From: Roseicyclus sp.
GTDB taxonomy: Bacteria; Pseudomonadota; Alphaproteobacteria; Rhodobacterales; Rhodobacteraceae
DNA: 64,000 nt
NCBI GenBank assembly: GCA_018401385.1
Contig: JAGYKZ010000003.1
Coordinates: forward strand, 1-64,000
Direction of reading: 5' to 3'
A model generated the notes under the pieces. That model was not told the DNA's origin. It made no database searches and was given only the letters and a program-made list of their open reading frames with translations. Both the position numbers and the translations under genes were made by a program. Below, piece after piece: positions 6,065-48,957 of the stretch; position 1 is the stretch's first letter, and the number at the start of each line of letters is the position of its first letter.

Positions 6065-8080
<2,016 letters not shown>

Positions 8081-21584: not shown

Positions 21585-23188
21585 TTAAACCATCAATTCC
21601 TTGGTCGCGGAAAGCTGCACATCAGGGTAGTCGCGTGCCACGCGGTCGATGTCCCATTGCAGGCGGGTCAAATAGACGGGGTCGCCGTCATTGTCCTCGG
21701 CCATATGTTGCTTGTTGGCGGCGGCGAATGCCTCGACCTTGTCGCGCGGACCATGCACCCAACGGGCGGAGAGTAAATTGGCTTGCGTCAAACCGCCTGG
21801 GCAGGCCGTATTCAATTCGATACGGCTGGCCAAGACCTCGGTACAGCGCGCCAGCGACACCCGTCGAAATCCTGATCCCAAAACGGGCTTGAAAACACCG
21901 CAGCCCCTTCTTCGGCTTAGTGCATCAGGGCCTTTTCAAGGTGTTTTGCCTTCATCGGGTCGCCTGCGCGCGCCGCGGAGCAATTCAGGCGCAAAACTGG
22001 GGATGCCCGTAAAGCGCAGCCTTCGCCTTCGGTCAGCGCCCCAATGCGCAATTGCCCATGGTTGGGGATGCCGATGATGTGTCCCCTGCCCAGGCCTCTT
22101 CGGCCAATTCGCGGTCAGCAGCCAGAAACAGCACGGGGTTTGAGATCGCCATCGCCTTTTGCTGCGCACATGGTGTAGCTTCATGCCCCGTTCAAAAATG
22201 GCCCGAGGCCAAACGGATAAAAGCCACGCGGTCACGGTGTTTGGGGTCCATATTGGCCTGCGCACGAACACAAACCCCGTGACCTTGCCCTCCTCGGGCG
22301 TCTCGCGCGGATGGGCGGTTTGCACCTGTGGGGCAGGGCCGAATTCGGCAATGCCCGCCATCAATTCGCGCACGCCAAGAATTGATGGCCGAGCCAAACC
22401 AAATCGGCGTCATCGCACCTGCAGAGAAGGTGGCATGATCGAAAGCAGACGAAGTTCGCCAGGCCATCTCGATCTCTTCGCTGGCTTGGCAAGCTGTGCT
22501 TCAGGATGTGATCGGCCAGTTTGGGGTCTTCCAGCCCGCTCATCGCCTGACGGTTTCCGCCACACGGTTGCGGTCGGCGCGATCATCAATTCAAGACGGT
22601 CGTGGATCAGGTCATAGCACCCCAAGAAATCACGGCCCATCCCGATGGGTAACTGGCGGGAGCCACATCTGGCGAGATTTTCTTGGATCGTCAATGATTT
22701 CAAAAATGTGTCGCGGCTTTCGCGGTCCATCTTGTTGCAAAATGTCAGAGATCGGCGAATCGCGCAGGCGGCAGACCTCGAACAATTTCTGGGTCTGGCA
22801 CCACGCCCTTCGCGCCGAAATCAATCACCATGATTGCGGAATCGACGGCCGTCAGCGTACGATAGGTGTCTTCGGAGAAATCGCTGTGACCAGGGGTATC
22901 GACAAGGTTAAAGCGAAATTCGCGGTAATCGAAGGACATGGCCGAGGCCGAGACCGAGATGCCACGATCCTGTTCCATCTTCATAAAGTCCGAGCGGGTG
23001 CGCCGCGCCTCGCCTTTGGCGCGCACCTGACCTGCCATCTGGATCGCACCACCATAGAGCAGGAATTTTTCTGTCAGAGTGGTTTTGCCTGCATCAGGAT
23101 GCGAGATGATGGCAAATGTGCGCCGCCGACCAATCTCGGGCGGCAGGGTCGGGCGGTTTGATGTGATGTGGGATACATGATCGGACAT
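21585..23188 (-). CDS. prfC: Peptide chain release factor 3, frame broken about 21600-22770
   Basis: N-terminal ORF 22745..23188 ([46 protein letters not shown]); C-terminal fragment [28 protein letters not shown]. Confidence 0.88.
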
Positions 23189-25274: not shown

Positions 25275-26363
25275 ATGCCCCAATCCCCGCGCCTTGAGGT
25301 CAGCAACCTGTCCTGCGTCTTTGACGGGGTGGCGGTTGTGCGCGACATATCGCTGAATGTGGCAGCGGGTCAGATCATGTGTTTGCTCGGTCCCTCGGGC
25401 TGCGGCAAATCCACCACGCTTCGTGTGGTCGCAGGCGTGGAGCGGCAAAGCAGTGGTAAGGTTGCGCTCGATGGTGCCACGGTGTCGGACTCGACCCTGC
25501 ATCTGCCGCCAGAGGCGCGTTCGGTCGGGCTTATCTTTCAGGATTTCGCGCTGTTCCCGCATCTGAGCGTTGCGCAGAATATCGCGTTTGGTTTGCAGGG
25601 GCGCGGCGCTGACGTTAGCGCAAGGGTTGATGAATTGCTCGCCCGCGTGGACCTCAAGGGCTATGGCGACAAGGGCGTGCATATGCTCTCAGGCGGGGAG
25701 CAGCAGCGCGTGGCCTTGGCGCGCGCGCTTGCGCCGCGTCCCAAAGTGATGCTGATGGATGAGCCGTTTTCGGGGCTGGACAATCGCCTGCGCGATGGCA
25801 TCCGCGATGAAACGCTTGAGCTGTTGAAGGAGGAGGGCACGGCGGTTGTCTTGGTGACCCATGAGCCCGAAGAAGCGATGCGCATGGCCGACCAAATTGC
25901 CCTCATGCGCAATGGCCAAATCGTGCAACAAGGCGCGCCCTACAATATCTACAACGCCCCTGTGGATCAGGCGGCTGCGGCGTTTTTCTCGGATATCAAC
26001 GTGATCTCGGGGCGTGTGCAAGGCGCGCTGACAGATACCGCCTTTGGCCAATTCTTGGCGCCTGGTTTTGCAGATGGCACGGCGGTGGAAATCGTGTTCC
26101 GACCACAGCACGTCAAAATTGATTTTGACCGTGGCGGGCGCGGCCCCAATCCGACCGCCAGCGATGGTGTGCCCGCGCGCGCCATGGTGGAGCGGGCGCG
26201 GTTCATGGGGCATGAAAGCTTGGTCGAATTTCGGATGGAATTTAACGGTGATTTGATCCGCGCCACTGTTCCGGGGGTGTTCTTGCCGAAGAAAGGCACG
26301 CCGCTTTGGTTGAGCCTGCGGCGCGATAAGTGTTTTGTGTTTCCGGCCGCCCATACTGGGTAG
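25275..26363 (+). CDS. ABC transporter ATP-binding protein (FbpC/PotA-like, TOBE-type C-terminus)
   Basis: LLGPSGCGKSTTLRVVAG, LSGGEQQRVALARALAPRPKVMLMDEPFSGLD; start about 25275 (MPQSPRLEV). Confidence 0.9.
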   Translation: MPQSPRLEVSNLSCVFDGVAVVRDISLNVAAGQIMCLLGPSGCGKSTTLRVVAGVERQSSGKVALDGATVSDSTLHLPPEARSVGLIFQDFALFPHLSVAQNIAFGLQGRGADVSARVDELLARVDLKGYGDKGVHMLSGGEQQRVALARALAPRPKVMLMDEPFSGLDNRLRDGIRDETLELLKEEGTAVVLVTHEPEEAMRMADQIALMRNGQIVQQGAPYNIYNAPVDQAAAAFFSDINVISGRVQGALTDTAFGQFLAPGFADGTAVEIVFRPQHVKIDFDRGGRGPNPTASDGVPARAMVERARFMGHESLVEFRMEFNGDLIRATVPGVFLPKKGTPLWLSLRRDKCFVFPAAHTG

Positions 26364-30159: not shown

Positions 30160-30642
30160 TCAGGGCTGATATGGCGTAAAATCCTCGGGGCGGTAGCCAT
30201 TGGCCTTGGCAAGGCGCAAGGCGGCTTCGATGCGATCTGTGCCGCCTGTTGCATTGCGGTCAATCACCCAAGCAAACCGCCGGTCAGGCGCGCCCAGCAA
30301 AGCGGTGCGGTAGCCGTCATCAACCCACAACACCCAATAGGCCCGCCCCTCGGCATCACTGAATCGCGCGCGGTGCGGGGTGTTTGGGGCGGGCGCAAAG
30401 GCAAGGGTTTGACCCGTCCCGTCAATATAGCGCAGCGCGGTGATCCGATCTTGATCCGCCTCAAAGCTGAGTGCTTCAGGCGCGTTTGCTCCAAGCGCAT
30501 GGCGCATCACCCAAGGCCCCGCAAAGCGCGTGGCCTCAAATCGGGTGGTTGAGGCGATGGGGGCCTCTGTTTGGCTTGGGCCTGTGCACGCCGTCAGCGC
30601 CAGCAGCAGAAGGGCTGTAAGGGTGCGGGGCTTGCGCATCAA
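30160..30642 (-). CDS. Lipocalin-like lipoprotein
   Basis: Lipobox LLLALTAC; AGPWVMRHALG, YWVLWVDDGYRTALLGAPDRRFAWVIDRN. Confidence 0.65.
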   Translation of the reverse strand: MMRKPRTLTALLLLALTACTGPSQTEAPIASTTRFEATRFAGPWVMRHALGANAPEALSFEADQDRITALRYIDGTGQTLAFAPAPNTPHRARFSDAEGRAYWVLWVDDGYRTALLGAPDRRFAWVIDRNATGGTDRIEAALRLAKANGYRPEDFTPYQP

Positions 30643-31685
30643 TAGGGCAGGGGGTGGGCGCGGTGGATTGCGTCTATCTCGACCAAAACATCGCTCGAAA
30701 GGGTCACATCCAATCCGTCAAGGATGCGGGCCAATTGTGCGCTGGTGGTCGCCCCGAAAATGGTCGAGACAGGGAAGGGCCGCTGCACGCTAAAGGCCAA
30801 GGCCATATGAACAGGGTCTAGCCCGTGTTTTTGCGCCAGGTCCAGATAGGCCGCCACGGCCTCAAAGGCGCGGGCGGTTTTGCGCCCGCCCAAATCGCCA
30901 TTGCCCGCCATCCGCGACCCCTCGGGGACCGCGCCGTTTTGATATTTCCCTGTCAACAAACCTGCCGCCAGCGGCGAATAGGCCAAAAGGGTCAGTTGCT
31001 CATTCACCGCCAATTCGGCAAAATCGGTGTCGTAAAGGCGGCAGAGCAGCGAATATTCATTTTGCAGCGACATGACACGCGGCAATCCCCGATCCTCGGA
31101 CAGGCGCAGCCATTGCGAAACGCCCCAAGCCGTATCATTGGACAGCGCGAAATAGCGCAGCTTGCCCGCTTTGATCATCCGATCTGCCGCGTCCAGAATT
31201 TCTTCCATATGGGCAAGCGTCACAGATTTCACCTGTGCCGATGGGTCATACACCCAGTTCTGGCGGAAATGATACGAGCCGCGATTGGGCCAGTGCATTT
31301 GATATATGTCGATATAATCGGTCCCAAGTCGCGCCAGCGAGGCATCAAGGGCTGCGGTAAAGCTTGCGGCGGTGATATCCTCACCCATGCGCACGAAGGC
31401 CGCATTTTTTCCGGTAATCTTGGTGGCCAAGATATAATCGCCTCGCTTCGCGGGGTTGGCGCGGTTCCAATTGCCAAGGATGGTTTCGGTCAGGCCCACG
31501 GTTTCGGCACGCACGGGGTTGACGGGATACATCTCTGCGGTGTCGACAATATTGATCCCTGCCGCGAGCGCCATGTCCATTTGGCGATGTGCGTCCGCCT
31601 CGGGTGTTTGGTTGCCCCATGTCATCGTGCCAAGGCAGTAATCGGTGATCATTGTATCTGTGGTGCCGAGCGGTATGTGGCGCAT
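30639..31685 (-). CDS. Aldo/keto reductase (Tas-like)
   Basis: CLGTMTWGNQTPEADAHRQMDMALAAGINIVDTAEMYPVNP. Confidence 0.92.
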   Translation of the reverse strand: MRHIPLGTTDTMITDYCLGTMTWGNQTPEADAHRQMDMALAAGINIVDTAEMYPVNPVRAETVGLTETILGNWNRANPAKRGDYILATKITGKNAAFVRMGEDITAASFTAALDASLARLGTDYIDIYQMHWPNRGSYHFRQNWVYDPSAQVKSVTLAHMEEILDAADRMIKAGKLRYFALSNDTAWGVSQWLRLSEDRGLPRVMSLQNEYSLLCRLYDTDFAELAVNEQLTLLAYSPLAAGLLTGKYQNGAVPEGSRMAGNGDLGGRKTARAFEAVAAYLDLAQKHGLDPVHMALAFSVQRPFPVSTIFGATTSAQLARILDGLDVTLSSDVLVEIDAIHRAHPLPY

Positions 31686-31770: not shown

Positions 31771-31799
31771 TTGAAGAACAAAAAAGGAACATTTATAAG
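31771..31799 (+). promoter_or_regulatory. Putative SOS promoter: -35 TTGAAG, N17, -10 TATAAG with alphaproteobacterial LexA box
   Basis: TTGAAG 31771-31776; GAAC-AAAAAAG-GAAC (GAAC-N7-GAAC) 31776-31790; TATAAG 31794-31799. Confidence 0.65.
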
Positions 31800-31806
31800 G
31801 TCACCC

Positions 31807-32471
31807 ATGCACATCACCCATGGTTCTTTTGATCACATCACCGCCTCTGTCACGCGCGCAAACCGTTTTTGCACCTCTTTGATGGGTGTGATTTGCGGCT
31901 TGGGCGGATGCATGAGTTTTGTGGCCCTGCACGGCGGCGTTTGGCGCTTTGGGTGGCGGCGCAATTGGCGGGACCTGTGCTGTGGATCCGCCCCGCATAG
32001 CAGCCTGACCATCTGCATATGCAGGCTGTGGCGGAGGAAATGGATCCCGCCCGCTGATCTTTGCTGCGGTGGAGCGGCGCGAGGATTTGCTCTGGGTGAT
32101 GGAGGAGGCATTGCGCAGCGGCGCGTGCCCTATGGTGATTGCCGATCTTCTGGAACCCCCAATCTGACTTCGGTGCGCCGTTTGCACTTGGCCGCCGAAG
32201 CCTCGGGCAAATCGCCATTTGCGGCGCTTTTGACCCCACATCATGGCGGTGCAAGCGGGGTGGAGACACGATTTTCCTGTCCGCACACCATGGTTGCCTG
32301 AGCTCGTTGGAGGGCGGCAAGGGGCAGGATGTTGATCTGCCTGCAGGGCTTGAGGCGCGCCTGTGGCAGATGCGGCGCTTGCGCGCCCGCCTCGCCCCGC
32401 CTGCGTCATGGGAGGTGCGACACCGCCCCAAAGGGCTTCTGGCGCAATCCATTGCACCCAGCTTTGTCTGA
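31807..32471 (+). CDS. ImuA-like/RecA-like SOS protein, frame broken
   Basis: Multi-frame reading: [47 protein letters not shown] ... [62 protein letters not shown] ... [14 protein letters not shown]. Confidence 0.6.
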
Positions 32472-32552
32472 GCCTTTGCGCTGTCTAGCCATTCGGTTTG
32501 CTTTGGGTTAGACGCGGAAGCGAAAGAAATCATCTAACACAAGGCGGGCGTG

Positions 32553-34264
32553 ATGGAGCGTGTTCTGATCACTTCGGCGATCCCATATATCAACGGGATC
32601 AAGCATTTGGGAAATCTTGTGGGCAGCCAATTGCCCGCCGATCTTTTCGCCCGTTACAACCGTGGTCGGGGTCGCGAGGTTTTGTTCCTCTGCGCCACGG
32701 ATGAGCATGGCACACCCGCCGAATTGGCCGCGGCCAAAGCGGGCATGGATGTGGCCGAATATTGCGCTAAGATGCACGCGGTGCAGGCTGAAATCGCGCA
32801 AGGGTTTCGTTTGAGTTTCGACCATTTTGGCCGATCTTCCAGCCCGCAAAACCACCGACTGACACAGCATTTTGCGGGACGTCTGGCCGATGCGGGACTG
32901 ATTTCTGAGGTCAGCGAACGGCAAGTCTATTCCAATGCCGATGGCCGCTTTTTGCCAGATCGCTATATCGAGGGCACTTGCCCCAATTGCGGCTATGACA
33001 AGGCGCGCGGCGACCAGTGCGAGAATTGCACCAAACAGCTGGACCCAACCGATCTGATTGAGCCGCGCAGCGCGATTTCTGGCTCGACCGATTTGCAGGT
33101 GCGCGAGACCAAGCATCTTTACTTGCGCCAATCCTCCATGCGCGATCAGTTGAACGCATGGATTGATAGTAAAACGGATTGGCCGATCCTGACCACCTCG
33201 ATTGCGAAGAAATGGCTCAATGACGGTGATGGGTTGCAGGATCGCGGGATCACCCGTGATTTAGACTGGGGCATCCCCGTCAAGAAAGGCACGCAAGAGT
33301 GGCCCGGCATGGAGGGCAAGGTTTTCTATGTCTGGTTTGATGCCCCCATCGAATATATCGCCTGCGCTGCCGAATGGGTGGATGCGGGCAAAGGCAGCGA
33401 TTGGGAGCGGTGGTGGCGCACCGACATGGGCGCGCAAGATGTGCGCTATGTCCAGTTCATGGGCAAGGATAACGTGCCCTTCCACACGCTGAGTTTCCCC
33501 GCCACGATTTTGGGCAGCGGGGAGCCATGGAAGCTCGTAGATTACATCAAGTCGTTTAACTATCTCAATTACGATGGCGGCCAGTTCTCGACCAGCCAAG
33601 GGCGTGGTGTGTTTATGGATCAGGCTTTGTCGATCCTGCCGTCCGATTACTGGCGCTGGTGGCTGCTCAGTCATGCGCCAGAAACCTCGGATAGTGAGTT
33701 TACTTGGGAGAATTTCCAAGCGGGGGTGAACAAGGATTTGGCCGATGTGCTTGGCAATTTCGTCAGCCGTATCACCAAGTTCTGCCGCTCAAAATTTGGG
33801 GAAGTGATCCCTGAGGCGGGCGCATATGGCGCGCAAGAGGCGCGCGTCATGGCCGATTTGCAGGCCCGCCTTGACGCTATCAAACGCATATGGAGGCGAT
33901 AGAAATCCGCAAAGCCGCCGCAGAGCTGCGCGCGATTTGGGTGGTGGGCAATGAATATCTGCAATCTGCCGCACCATGGACCGTTCACAAGGAAGACCCG
34001 GATCGCGCCGCAGCGATCACGCGCTTCTCTCTGAATTTGATCCCGTTTTATGCGGTGCTCTCTGCGCCCTTCATTCCAGATGCCGCTCAGGCGATGCTCG
34101 ATGCGATGGGATGCACGGACGACACATGGCCCGTGGATGTGGCTGAGGGTCTGTCGCGCTTGCCCGCGGGCGACGCATTTGTGGTGCCTGATGTGCTCTT
34201 TGCCAAGATCAGCGATGAGCAGCGCGAAGCATGGCAAGCACAGTTTGCAGGGGTGCGCAGCTGA
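32553..34264 (+). CDS. metG: Methionine--tRNA ligase (frameshift about 33885-33895)
   Basis: [74 protein letters not shown]-terminus in ORF 33890..34264. Confidence 0.95.
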
Positions 34265-38289: not shown

Positions 38290-40191
38290 GCGATATAATC
38301 CCGATTTTGTGCTGCTGCTGCGTATTCCCATCACGCGTGCCCGCGCCCGTGGGTCATTGTCAAAGAGGGCTGCTAATTGTTCTGTGATGGCGCCTGCCAA
38401 TTGTTCGGCATCGGTGATGGTGACCGCACGCTCGTAATATCGGGTCACATCATGGCCAATGCCAATGGCCAGCAACTCCACCGCGCGGCGGCGTTCGACC
38501 ATGTTGATCACATCGCGCAGGTGCTTTTCGAGATAATTGGCGGGGTTCACAGATAGGGTGCTGTCATCCACCGGCGCACCATCCGAGATCACCATCAAAA
38601 TCTTGCGTGCCTCGAGGCGGGCCCAGCATCCGCCGATGTGCCCATTCAAGGCGCCTGCTGCATCTATGTTTTCCTTCAAAGGCCCTCTTTCATCATCAGG
38701 CCCAGGTTGTCGCACCCGCCGCCACGGGGCATCTGCGGATTTATAAATGATATGGCGCAGATCATTCAGGCGGCAGTTGCTTGCGCGCCCCGCTGCGCCA
38801 GCCATTCCTCGCCAGGCCTTGCCGCCTTTCCCACGCCCGCGTGGAGTGAAGCCCAAAATCTCGACTTCACATCGCACCACGCTCCAGCGTGCGGGCTGGC
38901 TATCTGGCGCAGATCGCGGCGATGGAAATGGGCCGCCCGCGCATTGAGCCAAATTATTGTCCAATGAAGCGTCACCACCGTGTCGCGGAATTCGGTATCT
39001 TTCTCGACTTTGAAAGACAGGGTGGTGGGGTTGGCCACGACCCGTGCCAATCGGCCCTCAAAATCCCCTCCTCGCGGTCAAAGTCCCAAGAGCGGTTCTG
39101 CTGCGCTTGCAGGCGGCGTTACGGGCTTGTTAGCCAATCGAACTCACGGCACCCTTCAAGGTTCCAATTGTTAGTCCAGATAGGCGCGCAGGCGCTCAAT
39201 TCTGCGGCTCGGCCAAATCTTCGGCAGCGATTTCTTCGTCATGGGTGGTGGAAAAGCACACCGTATATTCAGGGTCCATCGGAATGCGGTGGTGCTGGGG
39301 CGGCTCAACGGGGCATTGCCATCGGGCAATTCCATTCCCTCGCCCTCCTCGACATCGCCGTTTTCATCCATCTGCTGTGCCTGCGAAGCGTCTGTTGCTC
39401 CTCTTGCGAACGCTCTGGGTCAGCATCGGCGCTGTCATCTTCCCTGACTTTCGCTCTCGCCTGTGCTGTCAGGGGTTTCTTGTTCTTCTTGATCCTGTTC
39501 GGCTGTCTTCATCCTGTTGATCGTCAGTGATCCGGGATCATCCGCCCAATTGGTCAGTAGCCGAGGTCGAGATGAATTGCCGCGCCACCCGCCCGAAAAC
39601 GCCGCTTGATCGTCCAACGACCCAGTCAGCGCATCGAGGCTTGCGCCGCAGCGCTCCTCGATGAAAGGCCGCCACAGCTCCACAATGTTCGCGCTTCTGC
39701 TGGCGTGGTCGTCCTGTCCACCCAATCTGGCGCAGCATATCAACCCGCCGCTGTGGATAGGGGCGCGCTCACTGCGCTCGGTGATTTCGCCATAGGCCTT
39801 TCGCCGACCTCAGCCCCACGATCTTCGCGTCAATATTGCCCGCAGTTCCCGGCATGACCCGCGCCCCGATGGCCGCAACGGGCGGTCTCAATGGCACTCA
39901 TCAAATCGCGGGCAATTGCCCTGTGGGTTCATATTTTTTGCAGCAATGCGCGGGTTATGAAACCGATGACGCAGCGCAAAAGCATCCCGCTGTGCCGCGT
40001 GCAAAGCAGCACCTCCCTCGCAGCTCATACGGCGGCTGATTTGCCCGGCAGGCGGATCGTGTCAATGCTGGCGCCTGGCGGGTCCACCGAAAAACTGACC
40101 CCGAGATCGGGATCATTGGCCAAAACCCGTGTCGCATCGGCAAGTGCCTTCTTGAACGGATCCCGGCTGGGTTATCGGTGGGCTTGCCCAT
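38290..40191 (-). CDS. cobT: Cobaltochelatase subunit CobT, heavily frame broken (3' end approximate)
   Basis: Start [10 protein letters not shown] at 40191; C-terminus [64 protein letters not shown]. Confidence 0.82.
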
Positions 40192-40212
40192 TGGGTTTTC
40201 TGATCTTTCCTT

Positions 40213-41203
40213 AGCCAAGGCTGACGCTTGCAGCCGCTCTGGCAGTTCCTCGTCAAAAGCAGCGCGATGGGAATTCCGCCACGGTCTGGCTATCAACTCG
40301 TCACATTTGTTGAGGAAGGACAGGCCGGAACCGCATAGCCCGTGTCGCGGAAAATTTCCATTCTGCTGCGCCCAATTGATGACGGTGCGCGGGCTCATCA
40401 CCGTTGACAGCTCGCCATTCATAAACGCGGTGCGAGGTCAAATCGGCCACAGTGGACCATCTGGCTCACGATCTTGCGCCCTGCGGCGGTGTTGTAATGG
40501 GGCGCTTTCGATAAAACGATTGCAGCCTCAGCATCGTGATTAACGAGATAGTTCAAGGTCGCCACGGCTCAGCCCGGTCCATCTGCGCTTGGTTGATCTG
40601 CTGCGTGCCGTGATAAAGACCCGTGGTATGCCAAGCCCACCGTGTTGGCGGTCGCGAAGAAGGCGAAATATTTATGTGGCGTGATGATTTCGTTTTGATC
40701 AAGCAGTGTCAGCTTGCCGTCATGCTCTAGCACACGCTGGATCACGAACGCTTACATCCGCGCGGCCTGCATCATATTCGTCAAACACGATCGCCACAGG
40801 ATTGCGCGGCGCCCAAAGAAGATGCCTTCATGAAATTCGGTCACCTGCTTACCATCGCGCAGTTTGATGGCGTCGCTTCCCGATCAGGTCGATGCGGCTG
40901 ATATTAACTGTCGAGGTTCACGCGCACGGCGGGCCAGTTGAGGCGCGCAGCGACCTGTTCGATATGGGTGGATTTGCCTGTGCCGTGATAGCCTTGGATC
41001 ATAACGCGGCGGTTGTGGGAAAACCCCGCCAAGATGGCCAATGTCGTATCGCGGTCGAATTTATAGGTGGGGTCGATCTCTGGCACACGGCTGGTTGCTT
41101 CGGCAAAGCCTTTCACCTTCATGTCACTGTCGATGCCAAACACATCGCGCACCGAAATCTCTTCGGTGGGTTTTGCATCTATTGCCAAGCTGCCATCTGC
41201 CAT
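40213..41203 (-). CDS. cobS: Cobaltochelatase subunit CobS, frame broken
   Basis: ISVRDVFGIDSDMKVKGFAEATSRVPEIDPTYKFDRDTTLAILAGFSHNRRVMIQGYHGTGKSTHIEQVAARLNWPAVRVNLDS; MNGELSTVMSPRTVINWAQ near the end. Confidence 0.88.
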
Positions 41204-41407
41204 AGTCTCAAACCTCGGGGGAGTTAAAATGCGTCATTTGTGGTGGTGCAACATATCGCGCCGCGCTGCAAGGGGAAGGGGGTGTGGAAAATTGTAGCCC
41301 GCTGCTGCCTTTCTCCCAGAATTACACGTTTAAGTCGAGGCGTGGTGGGGTGGCGCACCACCACCCCATTCCTGCCGCGCTCTGAGCTGCGCTGATAGAG
41401 GGCCCAT

Positions 41408-42752: not shown

Positions 42753-43696
42753 ATGTCGCGCATGGAAAAGCCACGCAGTTTCCAAGAGATCATTCTGCGT
42801 CTTCAAGCCTACTGGGCGGCAAAAGGCTGCGCGGTGATGCAACCCTATGACATGGAGGTGGGCGCGGGCACATTTCACCCCGCCACCACGCTGCGCAGCC
42901 TCGGGACACGCCCGTGGGCTGCGGCCTATGTGCAGCCATCGCGCCGCCCTACGGATGGACGCTATGGCGAAAATCCCAACCGCTTGCAGCATTATTACCA
43001 GTATCAGGTGCTGATCAAACCAAGCCCGCCCGATTTGCAGGATCTTTATCTTGGCAGTCTCGCGGCCATCGGGATTGATATGTCCCTGCATGACATTCGT
43101 TTTGTCGAGGATGACTGGGAAAGCCCCACCTTGGGCGCATGGGGCCTTGGCTGGGAAGTCTGGTGCGACGGTATGGAGGTCAGCCAGTTCACCTATTTCC
43201 AACAGGTGGGCGGACATGATTGCCACCCGTCTCTGGCGAATTGACCTATGGTCTGGAACGTTTATTACATGTATGTGTTGGGCATGGATCATGTGATGGC
43301 CATGCCCTTCAATGATCCAGATGCACCGATTGCCGTTGACATATGGGGATGTGTTTCGTCAAACTGAGGAAGAATATTCCCGCTTTAACTGACTTACGGC
43401 CAACACGGACATCCCTGTTGCGCCAGTTTTCCAGAGGCCGAGGCCAGTATCGCGCATTCTTTCGGCTGAGGATACTGACCCAAAAACGGGCAAACGGATC
43501 ATCGTAGGCGCATCCGCCTATGATCAATGCATCAAGGCCAACCATATGTTCAACCTGCTGGATGCACGCCAGGTGATCTCACGGTGACCGAGCGAAACTA
43601 CCAGTAATTGCGCCCGTGCGTGCCTTGGCGAAAACTTTGCGCCGATGCCTTTGTGCAGACGAGGCGGGCGGATATGATGCAGGGTCGGCAGCATGA
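42753..43696 (+). CDS. glyQ: Glycine--tRNA ligase alpha subunit, frame broken after 43230
   Basis: [59 protein letters not shown]; end readable as [15 protein letters not shown] with ATGA overlap to next gene. Confidence 0.93.
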
Positions 43697-44260
43697 GCAA
43701 CAAAACCAAAGGACGCTTGGTTGTGGCGGCAGTTGCCCTCTCCGCTTTGGCGGCTGGGGCAGGGATGTGGTATGCGCAAACCCGCGCCTTTTATGCGCCG
43801 TCATGCCCGATGACCCCCGTGCGCAGATCACGTTGACGGTCGGGGACGCGCTCCAGCCCTTGGCGATTTCTGGCTTTGACGGGATTGACAGCAACAGCTC
43901 CCCATCCGCTATCGCGCCTGTTTTGCGGTGGAGGCTGGCCAGAAGGCGCTCTTGGCGGCGGCGAAGCACCACGCGGCAGCTTCGCCTTTGGTGGCGCCCG
44001 CGTGGTTTCGGTGCTGACGCCGAGGCCTTGGGGGCGGCCATCGAAGGGGGCGCAACGGCCTATCTGGGACAACGGGATTTCATTTACGGTGTCGATGTCG
44101 TTGTGGCGCTCGATGCGCAGGGCCGTGGCTAGCCATGGCGGCAGATCAACCCTTGCGGCGAGGCGGCCTTTAATGGCGATCCCTTGCCCGGGGATGTCCG
44201 CCCTATGATGCGGAGAGTGACCCGATGCCCCAACCGTCCGCCACGCTCAACAGAATTTAG
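43693..44260 (+). CDS. DUF6446-like membrane-anchored protein, frame broken
   Basis: [36 protein letters not shown]...AQITLTVGDALQPLAISGFDGIDS; end VRPYDAESDPMPQPSATLNRI*. Confidence 0.65.
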
Positions 44261-44271
44261 GATTTTTCGCA

Positions 44272-46350
44272 ATGCCCGATCTTCTGCTCGAACTCTTCTC
44301 CGAGGGAAATCCCCGCCCGTATGCGGGGCAAGGCCGCTGATGACCTGAAGAAACTGGTCGCCGATGGTCTGGTCGAGGCAGGGCTGACCCTAATACCTCT
44401 GCGGCCAGTTTCGCGACCCCCGCCGCCTGTGTCTGGTGGTGGATGGTCTGAGCGCCAATTCCCCGACCACAACTGAGGAGCGCAAGGCCCACGCGTGGAT
44501 GCACCTGAAGCCGCCATTGAGGGCTTCTTGCGCGGCGCAGGCGTGTCGCGATCTGTTGGAGACGCACTTGAACAAAAGGGCGAGTTTATGTGGCGCGGAT
44601 CACCCATCGAGGGCGCGCGGCGGGTGATATTATCGCTGATGTGATCCCCGCCGTGATCCACCAATTTCCCATGGCCAAAATCCATGCGTTGGGGGCAGGA
44701 TCTTTGCGCTGGGTGCGGCCTTTGCATTCAATCCTGTGCATCCTCACCGATGAGGCGGGCGCAAGCACGTTGTGCCCTTTGCGGTCTGACCATCGTGACA
44801 GGCGACCAAACACGCGGTCATCGCTTTATGGCCCCCTGACAGCTTTGGTGTGACCAGTTTTGGATTACGAGGCCAAACTCAAACGCTTTGCCCATGTGAT
44901 TTTGCGCGCCGATGAGCGTGCAGACGCCATCTGGCACAGGCCAGTCAAATGGCGCTGCTGCGGGGTTAGACTGGTCGAAGATCGCGCCCTCTTAGCCAGG
45001 TGGCGGTCTGTGGAATGGCCCGTTGTTTTGATGGGCGAGATTGGCGCAGATTTTCTGAACCTGCCGCCTGAGGTTTACAGACCTCGATGAAGGAGCATCA
45101 GAAATTCTTTTCCGTGAAGAACCCCAAAGCAGGGCGGATCGAACGGTTTGTGACTGTGTCCAGCCGCATCACAGCCGATGAGGGCGCGACCATTCTGGCG
45201 GGCAATCAAAAGGTGCTTTCAGCACGTCTGTCAGATGCGAAATTCGCCACCTGGGGAAAATAAGATTTGGGTGGCGAAATCGGATATCACCCAATGGACG
45301 AAAAGCCTGGAGAATGTGACCTTTCAGGCGGAACTTGGCTCGCAGGCCGCGCGGATAAACGGATTGCCGGAATTGGCGGCGGAACTGGCCCCGATTGTGG
45401 GCGCAGACGCGGATCAGGCGCCAAGCGGCCAAAATCGCCAAGGCTGATTTGTCCTCCGAGATGGTCTATGAATTCCCAGAATTGCAGGGCCTGATGGGGC
45501 GCTATTATGCTGCTGAGGCAGGCTATGCGCCCGAAATTGCGGCGGTCGCGCAGGAACATTACCAGCCTCTTGGTCCCTCCAGACGATGTGCCAAGCGCGC
45601 CTCTCTCGGTCGCTGGCCCTTGGCCGATAAGATCGACACGCTGACGGGCTTCTGGGCGATTGATGAAAAGCCCGCAGGCAGCAAAGACCCCTATGCGCTG
45701 CGCCGCGCGGCTTTGAAATTCGGTTGGTGTTGGACAATGGGGTGCGGTTGTCGCTGGCTGGGCCGCAAGGCATCTTTGCTGTGCCCATGACCATGTTGCA
45801 ACCCAGCTTCACACTAAAGGCTTTGACGAAAAGATTGCAGACCTCCTCGCCTTCTTCCGCTGACCGCCTCAAGGTGCATTTGCGCGATGAGGTGTGCGCC
45901 ATGATGTGATCGTGCCTGCCTGTCGATGGCGGGCAATGATGATCTGGCCTTAGTCGTGGCGCGGGCGCGTGCGGTGCAGGCGGTGCTGTCCACACCGATG
46001 ACGGTGAAAACCCTGATCAAGATATCGCCGTGCCAACAATATCTTGACGCAGGCCGAGGCCAAGGATGGTGGAATACCGCTATGGTGCGGATGTGAAATT
46101 TGGAAACGGAGCAAGAGCGCGGGCTGTTTGCCGCGCTTGAGACCGCGCGCGCCGCCGCCCAGCCCGCTGCAAGCGGGAGGATTTCGCAGCCGCCATGGCC
46201 GCATTGGCCGCCTTGCGGCCCCCCGATTGATGCCTTTTTGAAAAGGTGCAGGTCAATGCCGAAAGTGAGATCGTGCGGCGCAATCGTCTGAACTTGCTTC
46301 GTAAATTGTCGAAACCTGCCAGCTTAGGGTCGCCGATTTGTCATAGTTGA
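44272..46350 (+). CDS. glyS: Glycine--tRNA ligase beta subunit, heavily frame broken; end approximate
   Basis: [37 protein letters not shown] readable with one extra G; WIPREWS / [20 protein letters not shown] near the end. Confidence 0.82.
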
Positions 46351-46436
46351 GGTAATGCTGCATCGCGGCGCTTTACAGATACGTTATGATTGTATCTTAG
46401 TGTCTTGGCCCGTTTCGGCTAGAGTAAAATTGCAAA

Positions 46437-48957
46437 TGAAAAATCGCCCCGACTATCACGCTGATTACCGCTACGGCGGATATGGACACCGCCCTCATGG
46501 CAACCGCGCCAAATGTTTGCAGCGTTTGGTGCGTCTGGGTTGCCGTGCCGCTGACAGCGGCCTATCCTTTGAAGCTGTGCGCCAGATTGCGCAAGGGCGG
46601 TTCCCGATCTGGCCCCTCTCTGGGCTGAGTTCGGTCCAAATACGTTGGTGTCCTGTGCGCTCCAGCGGTCAAGCTGGCTGATTGGGGCGGGCCGGGCCAC
46701 AGTGCTGAATATCGGGATGAATGATGACTTGGCTGAACATTTTGCCAAGATCCACGGGCGCAGCGCGGCGGATCAACTCTATGTGAATTTCATCGCGCCT
46801 ATGCCGTGGATGTGCTGCGCCTTGATGCGGATGAGTTCGAGGGCCAATGACCCCGCGCATTGCGAAAGAACATTTCGAAGACCCGAGGCGGAGGAGGCTT
46901 TTCCACAAGACCCAGTGGTGCAATTGCGCGGTTTGCGATCCATGGCGCGGGCATGGGAGGGGACAACGGCGCGGCTGTTGCGGCAGGCTGGGAATGCACC
47001 TGCCGATGCGGGCTTGGGGCTCGTGGTCGCGCATGGCGCTGGCATCAACCAGGTGTCTCGGGATCGGGGGTTGTGCAGATGATCGACCCTGACACAGGGG
47101 ATGCCGATGTGATTGGCCGCTTCGTGCAGCAGGCGCAAGGCCGCGTTGCACTGCGCAAGGATGATGCCCTCTATATCAGCCAGGATGCGCGCGGCAATGC
47201 GCTGCAAAATATCGCGCCCGAAGCGTACCACGAATTGATTGCGGCAGGTGCCTTGATGCAAAAAACTGCGAAGAAATGCAAATTGAATTCACGCTGATGA
47301 ACGGTCAGCTGAACATTCTGGACGCGGTGCGTGCGCCGCGGTCGGCGCGGGCGGCTGTGGCGGGGAGTGTCGTCAAACTGGCGCAGGACGATGTGATTTC
47401 GCGCGGCGAGGCGCTGTTGCGCATCCCGCCCTTTCAGCAGGCAATTGCTGCACCGTCAAGTCGATGCAGAGGCCCCGCGCGATGTGTTGGGCCGCGGGAT
47501 TGCCGCAGCACCGGGCGCGGCAACCGGCAAGATTGTGTTTTCCTCCACCGCCGCGCAGGCCTTGGCCGCGCAGGTGAAGCCACGATTTTGGTCAAGCGTG
47601 GGGAAAACCAGCTCCGAGGATGTGCGCGGGATGCACGCCGCGCAAGCCATTGACAGAGCGCGGGGGATGACCAGCCATGCCGCCGTGATCGCGCGCGGGC
47701 TTGGCCTGCCTTGCGTTACGGGGGCCAGCAGCTTGCAATTGGATATGCGCAAAAAAACCCTGACCGCCCCAGGGCGGCGCGTGTTCCACGAGGGCGATGT
47801 CATCACCGTTGATGGCTCATCGGGCGAGATTTTGGTGGGCGCAGACCAAGCTGATCAAGCCCGCCATAGGTGAGGCCTTTGCCACGCTGATCCAATGGGC
47901 GGATGACATCCGCGACATCGGTATTCGTGTTAATGCCGATACGGTGGAGGATGTGGAAACGGCGCAGCAATTTGGCGTGGATGGGATCGGCTTGTGCCGC
48001 ACGGAGCATATGTTTTTTGATCCCAGCCGCCTGACATTGATGCGCGAGATGATTTTCGCGGAAACCGAAAGTGACCGTGCGGCGGCTTTAGGATCGGTTG
48101 TTGCCGATGCAGCGCAGGGATTTCACGGAGTTGTTTAAGCGGATGGAGGGCAAACCCGTTTGCATTCGTTTGTTTGATCCACCTTTGCATGAATTCCTGC
48201 CCTCGGATCGCGATGGTATTCGCGCCCTGGCGAGGCACTTGACCTGCCGATGAGCCGTGTTGCGGCGCGGGTAGAAAGCCTGGCGGAATATAACCCGATG
48301 CTGGGGATGCGGGGGGTGCGTCTGGGGATTACCGTGCCTGAGATTTACGATATGCAGGCCCGCGCAATTTTCGAGGCAACCATCGCCGCAAGCGAGGGCA
48401 AAGACCCCGTTGCGCCAGAGATCATGATCCCGCTTGTATCCGCCAAACGCGAGGTGGAATTGGTCAAGTCACGCGTGGATGCGGTGGCTGCCGCCGTTGC
48501 CGCCGAAAGCGGTAAACGGTTCACCTATCGCTTGGGCGTGATGGTCGAAACGCCACGCGCCTCGCTTCGGGCGGGCGAGATTGTGGAATGCGCGTCTTTC
48601 TTGTCCTTTGGCACCAATGACCTGACCCAAATGACCTATGGCCTCTCGCGCGATGATGCAGGGCGGTTTATGTCGGCCTATGTCCAGCAGGGCGTCTTTG
48701 TAGAGGATCCGTTTACGCGGTTGGACACGGAAGGGGTGGGGGAATTGTTGTTGATCGGGGCCGAACGCGGTCGTGCGGCACGCCCTGATGTGACATTGTC
48801 GATTTGCGGCGAACATGGCGGCGACCCCGATTCCATTCGCTTCTCGCGGGTTGCGGGATTTGATTATGTTTCCTGTTCACCTTTTCGTGTGCCATTGGCA
48901 AAACTATCTGCGGCGCAATGGGTGCTTGAGGACGAAAATATACTCGCAAAGCGTTGA
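46437..48957 (+). CDS. ppdK: Pyruvate, phosphate dikinase, frame broken before 48250
   Basis: [90 protein letters not shown]. Confidence 0.88.

Follow-up and report, generated by a model that had tools for sequence, protein, structure and literature searches.

SOS mutagenesis in many bacteria proceeds through ImuA, ImuB and DnaE2, which have mostly been studied as the products of a single operon. The imuA-imuB-dnaE2 cassette is LexA-controlled almost everywhere (PMC3901139), and in Dinoroseobacter shibae an imuA-type cassette is carried on a 126-kb plasmid (PMC9426580). The LexA motif published for the Alphaproteobacteria, GTTC-N7-GTTC (PMC8565304), is the reverse complement of GAAC-N7-GAAC and is also given for this class in PMC12700426. 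The locus analysed here carries the same direct repeat as the Caulobacter and Rhodobacter LexA operators, on the other strand and with no difference in motif, and is predicted to bind LexA. It resembles the imuABC cassette in that the same three proteins are, at the level of sequence, all encoded behind LexA boxes. It differs in that the genes form not one operon but three loci with separate boxes.

We examined a 64,000-nucleotide stretch (the window) from a Roseicyclus genome whose assembly is 69% complete (G000), together with three near-complete relatives from the same genus (G001, G002 and G003). Read directly, the order of elements in the window is AGGAAAATTC-TTGAAG-AACAAAAAAGGAACATT-TATAAG-GTCACCC-ATG (Table 1). 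The preliminary description had placed a GAAC-N7-GAAC repeat at 31776-31790 between the hexamers TTGAAG and TATAAG; the repeat is an exact match, and both hexamers are present with the 17-nt spacer it had given. The box ends 16 nt before the imuA ATG at 31807, which puts its first base 31 nt from that codon. A consensus promoter scan of the window did not call the TTGAAG/TATAAG pair, because the scanner demanded in the -10 element a final T that TATAAG lacks.

Table 1. Positions of the promoter elements, imuA and its neighbours in the window.
Feature	Position	Strand	Basis or remark
-35-like hexamer TTGAAG	31771..31776	+	Read directly; shares first base of LexA box
LexA box GAACAAAAAAGGAAC (GAAC-N7-GAAC, here GAAC-AAAAAAG-GAAC)	31776..31790	+	Exact match
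-10-like hexamer TATAAG	31794..31799	+	Read directly; 17 nt after -35
imuA start codon, predicted leaderless transcription start	31807..31809	+	Start point predicted from spacing
imuA-like gene, frame broken in this assembly	31807..32471	+	Alignment to intact genes of three same-genus genomes
Aldo/keto reductase gene, divergent neighbour (context only)	30639..31685	-	Pfam PF00248, E = 2e-56
metG, downstream neighbour (context only)	32550..34264	+	Pfam tRNA-synt_1g + Anticodon_3, two overlapping frames

The motif was searched for as the exact GAAC-N7-GAAC pattern and in individual genomic stretches. The window contains two copies where 1.25 would be expected, and 36 of 100 shuffles reached that count; because shuffles give similar counts, the match in the window is not significant on its own. 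There is likewise no excess of GAAC-N7-GAAC over chance in the genus genomes, where several exact matches sit within coding sequence and look like chance. The second copy in the window (26268-26282), which is located in a coding gene and is absent from the corresponding position of G003, also looks like chance.

It is conservation, not the pattern count, that separates the imuA box from chance. In the three relatives imuA is flanked, as in the window, by an aldo/keto reductase gene and metG, and in the genus alignment the box, AGAACAAAA-A-GAACA, forms an island of identity within a diverged intergenic stretch. The first set of loci was built from 30 orthologous loci of the family, all of which carry the exact box, and 40 more, giving 44 loci in which imuA is of the orphan type and about 25 of the cassette type. 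The exact box stands upstream of imuA at 44/44 orphan-type loci. A second set of 80 named Rhodobacterales loci, which takes in Ruegeria, Roseicyclus, Nioella, Tateyamaria, Phaeobacter and Cereibacter, overlaps the first in part, so the two are not fully independent; here the exact box is present in 78 loci and the other two have one mismatch each. The two closest entries in this set are Rhodobacteraceae bacterium XHP0102 and Rhodobacterales bacterium LSUCC0387. The preliminary description had named a box not conserved ahead of orthologues as one refutation of its reading; both sets (44/44 and 78/80) show it conserved. A GAAC repeat arising by chance, as might be supposed of a pattern expected about once per window, is refuted by its constant placement in more than 100 orthologous loci, and we give that idea practically no likelihood. 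That the operator belongs to the divergent aldo/keto reductase gene and not to imuA appears highly improbable. In the window the reductase gene begins on the opposite strand, 91 nt away from the box, and it is a neighbour at many orthologous loci too. But many loci lacking this neighbour retain the box, and the box keeps a fixed distance to the imuA ATG and a variable one to the reductase gene. An alphaproteobacterial-type LexA operator lying between the -35 and -10 elements of an orphan ImuA-like gene, as first proposed, thus remains the best reading, supported by conservation.

The promoter elements keep step with this operator. Aligned on the box, the family promoters give the consensus TTGA-GAAC-A(A/T)A-N4-GAAC-AT-NN-TAnnnT-N5-C-ATG, and the TTG of the -35 and the TA of the -10 stay in register with the box across orthologues (promoter statistics, n=45 in the first set and n=78 in the second). 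TTG is found at -4/-5 of the box in 38/45 and 74/78 promoters, while TAnnnT occupies the -10 position (offset 18-20) in 32/45, against 2.9 in shuffles, and in 67/78. The ATG follows the box start at 30-32 nt in 40/45 and 73/78 promoters, and Shine-Dalgarno-like motifs precede the imuA ATG in only 4/78. With a start about 7 nt past the -10 element, the first transcribed base would be the A of the ATG. The fixed spacing and the near absence of Shine-Dalgarno sites lead us to predict that the imuA mRNA is leaderless, with a 5' end placed by spacing. Translation cannot start further upstream in G001 and G002, where a TAG in the same frame precedes the imuA ATG by 12 nt.

A LexA-controlled promoter that is real but yields a short 5' leader, through another start point or a later start codon, is a less likely arrangement that merits some weight. 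The window has AAGG six bases before the imuA ATG, and some species have weak -10 elements. Set against this are the narrow range of box-to-ATG distances, the rarity of Shine-Dalgarno-like motifs and the in-frame stops that closely precede the ATG. The preliminary description did not mention a leaderless transcript, which the conserved geometry would imply. For comparison, Caulobacter CCNA_01391 is listed among the early SOS genes that have a LexA box (PMC12700426), and its primary start site is reported to be leaderless (PMC4287350). The passages of these two papers that concern CCNA_01391 do not tie it to imuA, and the leaderless imuA start proposed here is predicted from conserved spacing. 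Our search of the literature on leaderless transcripts with imuA and LexA found no direct imuA precedent.

The wider SOS regulon of the genus carries the same type of operator. A lexA gene (PF01726) is present in all four genus genomes, that is, in G000 and the three relatives, and its promoter contains two overlapping boxes in G000 and the relatives alike. Boxes also precede recA, a UvrD-type helicase gene and mmcB, so that lexA and recA of the genus too bear the alphaproteobacterial LexA operator. In Caulobacter, MmcB is a known SOS protein (PMC9578287).

Intact imuA orthologues in the genus encode 219-222 amino acids. Their best NCBIfam match is ImuA_translesion (NF033429), which an intact orthologue hits with E = 1.6e-13 and 51 bits, below the curated cut-off of 150; no Pfam model matches the protein. 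Searched against the PDB, a profile built from 25 orthologues hits RecA (E = 6.8e-4), and an AlphaFold model (pLDDT 87.4) gives Foldseek matches to RecA structures with E of about 1e-8, so that in its modelled structure the product has a RecA fold. The sub-threshold family match and this fold together support the earlier assignment of the product as ImuA-like. At the apparent place of the RecA P-loop the consensus reads CGPARRxLAL, by inspection only, and the Walker lysine therefore seems to be lost. A phylogenetic tree places 43/44 orphan-type ImuA proteins in one clade (support 99/93), separate from the family's cassette ImuA.

The imuA of the window had also been called an orphan, correctly, since imuB and dnaE2 do not adjoin it. 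Neither gene is adjacent to imuA at any of the 44 orphan-type loci, whereas both adjoin it in nearly all of the about 25 cassette-type loci. Both imuB and dnaE2 are present in all three near-complete relatives, where they and imuA are found at three different loci and each has a box to itself; on one contig of G001, imuA maps near 970 kb, imuB near 362 kb and dnaE2 near 309 kb. The imuB box, GAACAAAATGTGAAC, is exact in all three relatives, and the dnaE2 box, GAACAAAACGTGAAT, has one mismatch that is kept in all three. Orphan-type imuB and dnaE2 of other family members also retain their boxes. The position of the box relative to the promoter differs among the genes: it lies in the spacer at imuA, over the -10-like sequence at dnaE2 and just after the -10-like sequence at imuB. 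At ten orphan-type dnaE2 promoters (L258-L264, L266, L268 and L269) the box nearly always ends in GAAT rather than GAAC (GAACAAAACGTGAATATA), and the T of this GAAT also starts a -10-like TATAAT or TATACT. Judged by the spacing of the dnaE2 promoters, a leaderless mRNA may be made from some dnaE2 genes too.

In G000 imuB lies on a different contig from the window (L136, G000:C166:5380-7081) and has its own exact box, GAACAAATCATGAAC. The match holds one TGA and one TAG internally, and protein identity between G000 and G003 is 72% for imuB and about 92% for imuA. A search for dnaE2 in the 69%-complete G000 assembly did not find it.

At the cassette-type loci the box upstream of imuA is absent, except at L131. 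One genome, G038, has both types of imuA, with the cassette copy on a 126-kb contig. Twenty-two cassette-type imuA genes (L105, L107-L110, L112-L114 and L116-L129) contain an exact GAAC-N7-GAAC within the 3' end of the frame, where it encodes the peptide KNKxGT shortly before imuB begins. Glycine in this box is encoded by GGA in 22/22 cases, against 53/369 of the Gly codons in the same frames, and the internal box therefore looks like an imuB-dnaE2 LexA operator embedded in coding sequence. In many of these genes a -10-like TTATAA stands right before the internal box.

The preliminary description's ImuA-like label for the gene behind the promoter is supported, but an interruption of its frame had been missed. 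Compared with G003, the imuA of the window has 1-base deletions near 31866, 32055, 32160 and 32278, and a TAG at 31998-32000 replaces a conserved Trp codon. The window is collinear with G003 and shows about 470 frame-breaking gaps over 64 kb, which fall in dense patches across many genes (for example 6377-8000, 21772-23188, 38622-41271 and 43228-48957). One such gap is a one-base deletion near 33877 in metG. The number of gaps and the gap in metG thus indicate that indel errors are widespread in the assembly; with stretches so rich in errors, broken frames in the window are, absent reads, no proof of pseudogenes. We consider assembly error somewhat likelier than recent pseudogene formation as the source of the imuA lesions.

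A recently inactivated imuA, with the operator as a relic that still looks intact, is a possible but less favoured account. The concentration of four 1-base deletions and one TAG in 665 nt of imuA, next to immediate neighbours with hardly any gaps, speaks for it, as do the two stops in the imuB match of G000 and a somewhat raised proportion of nonsynonymous changes on this branch (10/29 in imuA versus 9/67 in metG; Fisher p = 0.025). Against it stand the roughly 470 gaps throughout the window, which affect many genes including the essential metG, the intact box and promoter of imuA, and the fact that changes in imuA on this branch are still mostly at the third codon position (8, 4 and 17 by position). 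Whether the lesions are assembly errors or mark a pseudogene, the reading of the promoter is the same.

The data above show the sequence elements, how they are conserved and held in register, the regulon around them, the ImuA-like family of the product and the scatter of the genes over the genome. From these we infer LexA binding, damage induction, a leaderless start and a role in translesion synthesis. A LexA dimer on GAAC-N7-GAAC between the -35 and -10 elements would block RNA polymerase. Upon DNA damage, RecA would promote self-cleavage of LexA and the imuA promoter would open. Transcription would then begin at, or 1-2 bases from, the ATG and give a leaderless mRNA, and the RecA-fold ImuA could join ImuB and DnaE2, made from distant loci with their own boxes, in an error-prone mutasome. 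Taken as a whole, this explanation, in which a LexA-repressed sigma-70-type promoter drives a stand-alone imuA whose leaderless mRNA encodes a mutasome protein, is very probably correct. Counting against it are an ImuA model score short of the curated cut-off, a -10 element that is not strictly conserved even among members of the genus, the broken imuA frame of this assembly and the failure to find dnaE2 in the incomplete G000 genome.

The operator type is already known, and the family-wide, stand-alone and apparently leaderless imuA module is a variant of what is known. We found no description of such a module, or of a scattered mutasome whose genes have their own boxes, in a literature search that covered cassette rearrangements incompletely. 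The broader proposal is that the Rhodobacterales imuA has an obligatorily leaderless SOS transcript, that operator, promoter and start codon form a module of ~38 nt across the family, and that the scattered three-gene mutasome is united only by separate LexA boxes at differing promoter points (the spacer in imuA, over the -10 in dnaE2 and the start site in imuB). We hold this to be slightly more probable than its opposite. With imuA, imuB and dnaE2 separate and each behind its own box, the timing and order of expression from each promoter become questions that can be asked. In this marine bacterium the imuA promoter should act as a damage-responsive switch for a mutation-prone repair gene, and a leaderless SOS mRNA, if true, might favour ImuA synthesis while translation is stressed.
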